A program made the position numbers and the translations under genes. A stretch of 64,000 bases of DNA from Frigoribacterium sp. VKM Ac-2836 (GTDB taxonomy: Bacteria; Actinomycetota; Actinomycetes; Actinomycetales; Microbacteriaceae), in contig NZ_JABRPK010000001.1 of NCBI RefSeq assembly GCF_013248995.1, positions 62,001 through 126,000 on the forward strand, written 5' to 3'. The notes under the pieces were generated by a model that saw only the letters and a program-made list of their open reading frames with translations, was not told the origin of the DNA and did no database searches. This document shows, in pieces, positions 51,428 to 53,875 of this stretch; within the stretch, counting starts at the first letter, position 1; each line of letters starts with the position of its first letter.

Positions 51428-51514
51428 GTCGGCAATTCCGGGCTGCTGCTGCGGTGGGGTGACGGGATCGGCGTGGGACCGGCGCGCCGGCGCCCGGAGC
51501 CAGGACTTGCCGAC
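51428..51514. repeat. 87-bp palindromic element, copy 1
   Basis: It begins GTCGGCAATTCCGGGCTG and ends CCAGGACTTGCCGAC, the ends being inverted repeats. The first 26 bp match copy 2 (53684-53769) except at one base; the middle differs. It lies in the gap between two convergent genes. Confidence 0.8.
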
Positions 51515-51594
51515 AGGCGGTCGGGTGGGGGTGAGCTCGGGACCACCCGACGGGCCGGGGCCGTCCTGTCGACGCGACCCGTGCCTCCTGACGT

Positions 51595-52278
51595 CTAGAG
51601 ACGGGCTTCGGTCCGCCTCGGCTTCAGCCGTGAAGGGGCGTCCGAGGCCGCGAGCCACTCGCAGGTGAACGTGCCGCGGTAGCCGAAGAGGAAGCCGAAG
51701 CGATGGTTGCGCACCTCGAGGTCGACGTGGAACGACCGGTCGTCCTCGGACCACCACTCGTGCAGCTCGGCCCGGCCGCTGAAGAGCAGCGGGAAGCGGA
51801 ACGAGACCGGGCCCTCGTGGAAACGCTGTGCCCCGGACCGCAGAACGAGGCCACCACGGTCGTCGACCGCGAGGTCGAGGTCGACCGCGAGGTGCTGGTG
51901 GGTGCCGAGGTAGTCGAGCACCCGCCCCTCGTCGAGCACCATGGTCGCGTCGAAGCGGACCGGGCGACGATCGGCGCGGCGGCGCGGCACCGTGTACGAG
52001 CGGACGAACGTGACGGTCTCGCGACCGAGACCGTCGCGGTACGGGTAGTTCTCGATGACGAAGGGCACGTCACGGCCGACGTCGGGCACCAGGATGTTGC
52101 GCAACCTGCCGATCTGCAGGAACGGGACCGTCCACCACGGGCCCCTCCGGATCGACGACATGACGCCCCGGCCCACGCAGGCCTCGCCCGAGTCCAGGCC
52201 GACGCCGAAGCGGCGCTGCATCATCGGGTGCAGGCGGGCGAACTCGTCGCCCAGGGCCTGCTCGAAGATCGAGGTCAT
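51595..52278 (-). CDS. DUF4166 protein
   Basis: 227 residues: FARLHPMMQRRFGVGLDSGE near the start, then GPWWTVPFLQIGRLRNILVP, YRDGLGRETVTFVRSY, and a C-terminal FGFLFGYRGTFTCEW. This is the DUF4166 pattern, often found beside lipid- or surface-related genes. The start overlaps the stop of the SRPBCC gene (ATGA), so both are co-translated. Function unknown. Confidence 0.85.
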   Translation of the reverse strand: MTSIFEQALGDEFARLHPMMQRRFGVGLDSGEACVGRGVMSSIRRGPWWTVPFLQIGRLRNILVPDVGRDVPFVIENYPYRDGLGRETVTFVRSYTVPRRRADRRPVRFDATMVLDEGRVLDYLGTHQHLAVDLDLAVDDRGGLVLRSGAQRFHEGPVSFRFPLLFSGRAELHEWWSEDDRSFHVDLEVRNHRFGFLFGYRGTFTCEWLAASDAPSRLKPRRTEARL

Positions 52279-52910
52279 CGGGGTGACCGCCTCGCGGGGT
52301 CGGGCAGGGCGGCCAGGGTGACCGGCGCCTCCTTCAGATGGTCGCTCGTGCGTGAGCCGCCCGCGGGCGCACGACGGGTGCGGGAGGCGCGGGGTCGGTC
52401 CGGACGCCAGAACGCGACGGCGCTCGCGAGGGGCCATCTCTCGGGATCGCGACCGGTCTCGAGCCAGAGCCGCAGACGATCGAAGCTGAAGGCCGTGGCC
52501 CAGCCGAGCAGTGGGCGGACGACCAGGTCGAGCGGACCCCAACCCGACTCGTAGTCGTAACCGGTCACGAAGCGCGTCCGGCCGTCGGCCGTCGGCAGGT
52601 AGCGCCAGTACCCGCGCCCGGCACGGATCGGCGAGAGGACGTCGTCGGTCGCGAAGCGCAGGGCAGAGGTGCGTGAGCCGTCGGGACCGTGGCGCTCGCC
52701 GATGCTGACGCCCGTACCCGCGACGGTGTGGAAGGGCGTCCGGCGGACGTAGCGGAACGGGGTCGAGCCGTCGTCGTCCGGCGGCCCGGGGGTGATGCTC
52801 GAGAAGCGGACGTCCCAGCGGACGTGCTGTGCCGGGTCCTGCGTGGCCGCCCAGACCCGGTCGAGGTCGGCGTCGATCACGGTCTCGACATAGATCTGAC
52901 GTTTCCCCAC
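52275..52910 (-). CDS. SRPBCC (START-like) protein
   Basis: 211 residues. A START-like lipid-binding fold is suggested by RQIYVETVIDADLDRVWAAT, HVRWDVRFSSITPG, and the repeated FRYVRRTPF/GRGYWRYLP strands, ending in LGWATAFSFDRLRLWLETG. The C-terminal ~35 residues are a basic low-complexity tail carrying a decamer copy (encoding RASRTRRAP). The GTG start has a TACCCT -10 box 7 nt upstream. Paired with DUF4166. Confidence 0.8.
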   Translation of the reverse strand: MGKRQIYVETVIDADLDRVWAATQDPAQHVRWDVRFSSITPGPPDDDGSTPFRYVRRTPFHTVAGTGVSIGERHGPDGSRTSALRFATDDVLSPIRAGRGYWRYLPTADGRTRFVTGYDYESGWGPLDLVVRPLLGWATAFSFDRLRLWLETGRDPERWPLASAVAFWRPDRPRASRTRRAPAGGSRTSDHLKEAPVTLAALPDPARRSPR

Positions 52911-52917
52911 GATCGTG

Positions 52918-52923
52918 AGGGTA
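52918..52923 (-). promoter_or_regulatory. -10 box of the SRPBCC-DUF4166 operon
   Basis: TACCCT on the minus strand, 7 nt before the GTG at 52910. Confidence 0.5.
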
Positions 52924-52975
52924 GGGCATGGTGACGGTCCGGGGAACGTCGCGGAACGCGGGTCGCGGCCGGTTC

Positions 52976-52981
52976 TAGGCT
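52976..52981 (+). promoter_or_regulatory. -10 box of the maleylpyruvate isomerase-like gene
   Basis: TAGGCT ends 6 nt before the GTG at 52988. Together with the box at 52918 it makes a compact divergent pair of leaderless promoters. Confidence 0.5.
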
Positions 52982-52987
52982 CGCCCC

Positions 52988-53617
52988 GTGGACGAGAGCT
53001 TCGAGACGGACCGCGTCGCGTTCGGGGCGGCGGCCCGATGGTTCGCCGAGACGGTGCACGAGCTCGACCGGGTACCGGCGCGGTGGGACGACCCCGCCCT
53101 CGGCGAGTGGAGCCGCAGGGACCTCGTCGGCCACACGTCCAGGGCCGTGCTCACGGTCGAGCAGTACGTGCGGCCGGGGTCGTCGGACTCCGACTCGCGC
53201 ACCGTCCACTACTACCGGGCGGTCCGGGGCGGACGCGCCGATCCGGACGAGGTCGCGGACAGGGGACGGCGGGCGGGACGAGACCTCGGCGTCGACCTGC
53301 CCGCGAGCGTGGACGCCCTCGTGCGACGGGTGACCGGCATGGTGGCCGGACGGGCCGCGGACGCCCGGGTGGAGACCCCGGTGGGCGAGTGGCGGCTCGA
53401 GGCGTACCTGCCCACACGTGTCGTCGAGCTCGTCGTCCACACGGGCGACCTCCGGACGGCGGGCGGGCTCGGCGGACAGGCGCCCGAGGTCGCGAGTCGG
53501 CGGGCGCTGGTCGTGCTCGGCGCCCTCGTGGCCGATGCTCCGTCGGCTGACGCGCCGCGCCTCCTGGGGGCCCTGACGGGTCGCTCGGCGCTCTCCGCCG
53601 GCTACACGGTGCTGTGA
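52988..53617 (+). CDS. Mycothiol-dependent maleylpyruvate isomerase-family protein
   Basis: 209 residues. The DinB-like metal-binding helical bundle is seen in AAARWFAETVHELDRV, WSRRDLVGHTSRAVLTVEQY and VVELVVHTGDLRTA, with His residues at the usual positions (GHTSR, VVHTGDL). Named for mycothiol-dependent maleylpyruvate isomerase, but most members have other or unknown roles. A GTG start with a -10 box 6 nt upstream points to a leaderless transcript. Confidence 0.82.
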   Translation: MDESFETDRVAFGAAARWFAETVHELDRVPARWDDPALGEWSRRDLVGHTSRAVLTVEQYVRPGSSDSDSRTVHYYRAVRGGRADPDEVADRGRRAGRDLGVDLPASVDALVRRVTGMVAGRAADARVETPVGEWRLEAYLPTRVVELVVHTGDLRTAGGLGGQAPEVASRRALVVLGALVADAPSADAPRLLGALTGRSALSAGYTVL

Positions 53618-53683
53618 CGGGGACGCCTCGCCTGTCGTCGGGCGGCGGCCACGTGCCCGGGCCCGCGAGGCGTCGGGGTCGGC

Positions 53684-53769
53684 GTCGGCAATTCCGGGCT
53701 GGTGCTGCGCCGAGGTTCCAGGATCGTGCGGAACGGATGCAGCCGCAGCAGGAACCAGGATTTGCCGAC
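53684..53769. repeat. 86-bp palindromic element, copy 2
   Basis: It begins GTCGGCAATTCCGGGCTG and ends ACCAGGATTTGCCGAC, with inner TGCTGCG/CGCAGCA arms also paired. Intergenic, again between convergent genes. Just downstream are three GGCACGAC units (53769-53797). Confidence 0.8.
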
Positions 53770-53875
53770 GGCACGACGGCACGACGGCACGACGGCGGCT
53801 GCCGCGTAGGGCTCGACCGCGAGAGCAGGAGGCGCGACGACGAGAGACCGCGGAGCGGGTCGGGCCGGTGCCGCC

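Follow-up and report, generated by a model that had tools for sequence, protein, structure and literature searches.

REP elements with a RAYT (TnpA-REP) gene are short, palindromic and extragenic, are present in many copies and in arrays, and flank their cognate gene. The internal eliminated sequences of Paramecium have a free middle and a length quantized by about one helical turn, and the DNA uptake sequences of Neisseria show genus and species dialects, form inverted pairs after genes and are tolerated in frame within genes. Unlike the elements described here, in which no excision is seen, the Paramecium sequences are eukaryotic, have TA ends and are excised, whereas the Neisseria sequences number thousands genome-wide, compared with tens of clustered copies with a fixed pair length here. 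According to PMC7319586, the S. agalactiae AbiEi protein binds its own promoter at a pair of inverted 23-bp repeats, spaced by 3 bp, and bends the DNA, and the pairs of M. tuberculosis Rv2827c are 13 bp apart, so that the spacing of the two known cases differs by 10 bp. The elements of Frigoribacterium analyzed here are probably the paired recognition boxes of a fusion protein made of an AbiEi-like half and a Vsr-type nuclease domain, whose binding and cutting of these boxes we infer. Searches of the open-access literature, as distinct from subscription papers and preprints, turned up neither this element nor repeats linked to AbiEi–Vsr proteins.

The window, namely the whole 64-kb stretch analyzed (C1:62001-126000 of a 3.27-Mb genome), contains two elements, each composed of paired inverted half-sites and an unrelated middle. 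Element 1 (51428..51514, 87 bp, no strand assigned) has its left half-site at 51428..51453 on the plus strand, with an outer box at positions 1-14 and an inner box at about 20-26, and its right half-site at 51489..51514 on the minus strand. Element 2 (53684..53769, 86 bp, no strand assigned) has the same geometry and a different middle, with half-sites at 53684..53709 on the plus strand and at 53744..53769 on the minus strand; all four half-sites are delimited by the half-site logo and arm comparison. R1, a covariance model built from 54 copies, gives element 1 a score of 61.6 bits (E 2.0e-10) in its own genome and element 2 a score of 72.8 bits (E 5.1e-13), the top match of that genome. The left ends of the two elements are identical over 18 bp, and the right ends, when reverse-complemented, read GTCGGCAA(G/A)TCCTGG. 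With 0-1 mismatch, the four element ends are the sole matches to the pattern GTCGGCAAWTCCNGG in the 64 kb, and with up to three mismatches there are 22 matches versus 13.25 (sd 2.87, largest 20) in 100 shuffles of the window.

A sequence-only reading of this DNA had described a two-copy palindromic element with REP- or MITE-like organization, and its positions, near-equal lengths, common ends, different middles and convergent-gene setting of both copies, the last assessed with a crude codon-usage gene finder, agree with the present analysis. The palindrome holds as far as the inverted ends are concerned, but the symmetry is not perfect, since arm positions 9 and 13 are unpaired within each copy. 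The family extends well beyond two copies: the genome-wide search for paired ends that the reading called for finds 17 distinct elements in the own genome (R1, E<=0.01) as well as weaker ones, and so its own refuting case, two copies only, does not apply. A short tandem GGCACGAC-type repeat lies immediately 3' of element 2 at 53770-53796. Beside element 2, a 37-bp non-coding segment at 53813-53849 is 97 percent kept in three other genomes (G010, G013 and G015), and kilobases of differing DNA lie beyond it there.

A half-site reads GTCGGCAAnTCC(T/G)G, followed by the inner box near positions 20-26. Among positions 1-12, the invariance in the half-site logo is by construction for the 11 that the search pattern held constant, and a G is found at position 21 in 118/118 half-sites of the 84-87 class. 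A scan of the Frigoribacterium loci that allowed any length from 60 to 111 bp finds 159 distinct copies, all of which are 75-76, 84-87 or 95-98 bp long (75 bp, 12; 76 bp, 6; 84 bp, 3; 85 bp, 19; 86 bp, 54; 87 bp, 40; 95 bp, 1; 96 bp, 10; 97 bp, 1; 98 bp, 13), although these counts are not independent because related copies share their length by descent. The same scan of 644 kb of reversed sequence finds 0 copies. A search with exact ends finds no pair at 35-65 bp, and at 97 to 127 bp it finds just the 98-bp copies and two composites of neighboring ends. Lengths off the classes are seen in one exact 88-bp copy in G015 and in weak R1 matches of 65, 82, 83, 89 and 94 bp. Nested arrays additionally contain half-site pairs of 122 bp, and genes contain pairs of 224, 360 and 414 bp. 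The length classes differ by about one helical turn, and one orthologous site carries different classes in different species (86; 87; 85/96/85; 75; 87x3; 75; 87x2; 86x2; 87; 87/97/98). Each element would thus consist of two inverted half-sites of about 23-26 bp with outer ends about 75, 86 or 97 bp apart. At such distances, two bound protein monomers would face the same side of the helix, and the spacer between them, whose sequence would be irrelevant, would be sharply bent.

The exact paired pattern is present in 16 of 60 genomes, namely all 16 Frigoribacterium genomes and 0/44 others. Among public species genomes, it is present in 52 stretches, of which 50 are from Frigoribacterium and the other two are one proteobacterial and one acidobacterial MAG contig (L048 and L079), which score 28-36 bits with R1 and are excluded from the half-site, placement, length and site-group counts. 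The L048 match lies within a longer inverted repeat close to a contig end and is perhaps an assembly artefact. The number of R1 strand matches per genome varies from 10 to 75 across the 16 Frigoribacterium genomes. Of 89 placed copies, 72 are intergenic (42 tandem, 28 convergent and 2 divergent), 7 overlap genes and 10 lie at locus edges. As many as five elements share an array, separated by 4 to 293 bp. In G006, six 75-bp copies of a TCAGG dialect form a tandem array of about 150-bp units (L158 298-1140), unlike the other copies in this Frigoribacterium genome, which use TCCTG. Changes in copy number within a site look like tandem duplication and decay; such duplication accounts for arrays only, not for boxes with unrelated middles at new places.

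The dispersed, multi-copy and mostly extragenic distribution and the conserved ends bear out one part of the REP- or MITE-like reading. Inverted ends, many copies, arrays and clustering near one locus would also be expected of MITE-like or REP-like elements mobilized by an unseen transposase, which is nevertheless a very improbable origin. The Y1_Tnp domain (PF01797), to which the transposase search was confined, is found in 0/16 Frigoribacterium genomes versus 5/14 control genomes; the RAYT-like gene with matching ends that the sequence-only reading had proposed to look for is therefore lacking, while a putative DNA-processing gene carries the same elements. Direct flank matches of 2-9 bp at 142 elements are near chance, with no consistent length of target-site duplication; matches of 3-5 bp are in slight excess, and a single 9-bp match occurs. 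The middles of different copies are hardly more alike than shuffles: their median identity in Frigoribacterium is 0.40 versus 0.38 when shuffled, and the 2.9 percent of pairs with an identity of at least 0.75 are what orthologues and tandem copies would be expected to give. In other genera, the identity is 0.35-0.45 versus 0.33-0.37 when shuffled. Moreover, 14 of 31 site groups are orthologous sites common to at least two species, and the middle at the place of a 98-bp copy aligns to species without the ends, both of which argue against a MITE. In contrast to REP elements with a RAYT, there is no Y1 transposase here, a single end (GTCGGCAAnTCC..) is not self-complementary and forms no hairpin, so that pairing is between the two ends, the middle is free in sequence and fixed in length, and half-sites also lie in coding sequence. 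Among other candidate origins, a cassette- or integron-like exchange was rejected, as the flanks vary through gene turnover that is not bounded by elements, and three viral_contigs scans for a phage origin gave 0 matches.

The elements avoid divergent spaces, where only 2/72 intergenic copies lie compared with 19 percent of intergenic bases, in keeping with RNA-level hairpins, such as bidirectional terminators or processing stems in 3' regions. Such a role is improbable, however. Both window copies do fold, as the sequence-only reading had suggested checking, with z from -1.2 to -5.1 over the four strands, and the folding is better than shuffles for some strands, as expected of a hairpin. There is a weak pairing excess at arm positions 9, 14 and 15, with shuffles as high in 0.3 (9), 0.9 (14), 0.7 (15) and 3.8 percent (17) of cases in the per-position arm test, whereas no pairing excess is seen at 13, 16, 18-20 and 22-26, and among 54 copies the two arms disagree at position 9 in 15, at position 13 in 12 and at position 14 in 9. 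An RNA hairpin would not explain why the length changes by whole turns, Rfam has no match in the window, and the regional clustering of the elements also speaks against it. The evidence is not clean, and it leans toward two independently read half-sites rather than an RNA stem.

The elements lie on either side of a gene of about 320 codons at a locus by glyS and at two others. Pfam places AbiEi_4 above the cut-off in 2/4 copies of its product and matches MTES_1575 REase in 4/4 below the cut-off; PMC3710099 describes MTES_1575 as a Vsr-type REase. NCBIfam gives nothing useful, and PADLOC gives AbiEi models only. The acidic, H and DRxKD positions, which are of catalytic type, are invariant in 19 aligned homologues. 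In an AlphaFold2 model with a mean pLDDT of 84.8, residues 1-177 match AbiEi 6y8q (Foldseek E 2.8e-4; VIA Z 7.7 over 176 residues, a Z below 8 being weak by itself), and residues 182-280 match the homing endonuclease I-Bth0305I (3r3p, Z 11.9) and Vsr (1cw0, Z 9.8), suggesting that the protein is a predicted fusion of an AbiEi-antitoxin-like half to a Vsr/homing-endonuclease-type domain with putative nuclease activity. Residues 295-322 have a pLDDT below 50, and this low-confidence tail is encoded by the second element: (V/A)(G/C)NS, one reading frame of GTCGG[CA]AACTC, is found there in 10/19 aligned proteins. In six Frigoribacterium species the end motifs are absent at the tail-coding place, yet the coding sequence between them aligns; G004 was left out of this comparison because its frame runs on. 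On the other side of the gene, the closest upstream element stops 102-128 bp short of the start in six copies (L090, L215, L225, L218, L229 and L047).

In a protein tree, the 18 Frigoribacterium rows form one clade (97/99) whose internal order is not settled by the tree, and since this clade includes the second- and third-locus copies, the gene has been copied within the genus. In G000, which has the module, the neighbors at the third locus are about 1.4 kb apart, and in G008, which does not, 0.2 kb apart; the alignment of the two is too diverged for a precise junction to be read. No AbiEi–Vsr homologue is found in the 64-kb window; the own genome's second nuclease begins, as read in L145, at about C1 196.3 kb, which places the window copies 80.5-82.9 kb away.

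Elements are found beside 17 of 18 homologues from four genera at loci of at least 8 kb, a count that is not blind, since the DNA of most of them was chosen for holding elements. Among seven homologues from stretches taken by coordinate, six have elements, but the position of those six stretches had itself been set by elements. Of 24 random genes, 20 also lie by an inverted repeat of 13/15 or better, and so such a repeat barely discriminates. The only homologue seen in the G008 and G173 stretches outside the clusters, and the only one from DNA not chosen by elements, is a distant AbiEi–Vsr paralogue with 29 percent identity to the first aligned row (L276 8561-9547, G008 about 1.359 Mb); no element of the GTCGGCAAnTCC family lies beside it, and it may have a site of its own. 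Among the matches listed, all four other sites of G008 lie no more than 58 kb from the gene (binomial P 9e-6 with a 90-kb limit), and 11/17 sites of G015 are at most 90 kb away from either of two nuclease loci (P 5e-8); the 90-kb limit was set after seeing the data, the second G015 locus is deduced from its 98-bp element alone, and the counts omit the array flanking the nuclease itself and one 29-bp match in G008. The remaining 6/17 sites of G015 among the matches listed are far from both nuclease loci, including a 75-bp group 1.3 Mb away, and for some 75-bp groups there is no homologue in the DNA examined. Exact half-sites occur in 3/60 stretches of G008 (1.2 Mb), all at 1.76-1.84 Mb, and in 0/20 stretches of G173 (400 kb) outside its cluster.

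If the nuclease gene were merely in the same region, the elements could instead be a chromosomal site with a host function, its half-sites being read by some regulatory, segregation or nucleoid protein. The vertical conservation of intergenic sites beside housekeeping genes, such as those that we take to be leuA and glyS, the half-sites kept in frame inside genes and the change of dialect at all sites together would fit such a function. It is unlikely, however, because Frigoribacterium nuclease copies at two other loci have elements at equal relative places, and because other sites cluster around the second nuclease locus too. The clusters are near the antipode of dnaA in G008 and G173, but a role in the replication terminus or a macrodomain was rejected, because the clusters are some 0.3 Mb away from dif-like sites that share 23 (L263, G008 2153950) and 22 (L254, G173 1532697) of 28 bases with Frankia alni. 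Earlier dif scans had found none and GC skew was too noisy; the matches in G186 are 0.7-0.8 Mb from the antipode of dnaA.

A fusion of a DNA binder and a nuclease, a pair of half-sites before its own gene and nearby pairs in one-turn steps are most simply explained as a nuclease and its boxes. The AbiEi half would bind the half-sites, bend the DNA and regulate its own gene. The boxes, most likely those of the nuclease, would serve autoregulation, expected from the element about 100-130 bp before the nuclease start, and perhaps local spread; a second element often encodes the C-terminal tail of the nuclease, and further elements would lie mostly within about 90 kb. The arrangement resembles the AbiEi operators of S. 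agalactiae abiE and M. tuberculosis Rv2827c in having an inverted site pair before the gene of a protein with an AbiEi-like fold and differs from them in a spacing of presumably about 29, 40 or 51 bp between 23-bp halves, in the fused nuclease domain and in the many copies away from the promoter. The catalytic-domain fold is that of Vsr-type homing endonucleases such as I-Bth0305I, with invariant catalytic-type residues, but here the gene is not in an intron or intein, the presumed sites are many and dispersed, and there is an N-terminal AbiEi part. Cutting and repair, a speculative step, could copy half-sites into nearby DNA. There is accordingly room for a tentative suggestion of a self-spreading system, in which a sequence-specific AbiEi–Vsr nuclease might write its own paired half-site into neighboring DNA through cutting and repair, including in-frame copies within genes, while the spacing would be held to whole turns and site dialect and protein would co-evolve by lineage. 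If the sites spread, the system would parallel that of REP elements while relying on a nuclease of quite another kind. The analysis ties an uncharacterized actinobacterial AbiEi–nuclease protein to a defined DNA site, which makes its activity directly testable; the one-turn steps predict that the DNA is bent between two bound monomers, and the dialects are natural swaps for mapping recognition.

R1 at E<=0.001 finds matches in 18 of 199 Microbacteriaceae genomes, four of them Frigoribacterium, and in 9/85 genera. The elements of the other genera have the lengths of the Frigoribacterium classes and their own half-site dialect, GTCG[AG][ACG]AANTCAGG. A search for inverted 15-mers starting with GTCG in 20 stretches from 8 genomes of 4 genera, placed on R1 matches, finds 72 pairs with <=3 mismatches, compared with 8 pairs in all in the reversed control. 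Pairs with <=1 mismatch number 32 in three genera, and 30 of them are 75 (2), 85 (1), 86 (16), 87 (9) or 98 bp (2) long, the other two being 122-bp pairs in nested arrays; in the fourth genus the pairs match less well and measure 85-87 and 95-96 bp. G085 carries the dialect GTCGGAAACTCAGGA, G208 and G154 carry GTCGGAAACTCAGGC, and G173 carries GTCGACAACTCAGGA. At position 15, 23/24 half-sites of G085 have A and 24/24 of G208 and G154, which are of the same genus, have C; all sites of a genome change dialect in concert.

Nested symmetric arrays are found at L227 2192700-2193010 (G036) and L222 859540-859740 (G208), where two to three left half-sites are followed by an equal number of right ones at regular 36- or 44-bp steps. 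Half-sites also lie in frame within two genes, presumably nadB and nifS, at L217 1243344-1246631 (G173), L225 2685120-2685625 (G154) and L223 871690-872140 (G208); there they form the inverted pairs of 224, 360 and 414 bp and direct repeats 42 bp apart, and they encode protein linkers and tails.
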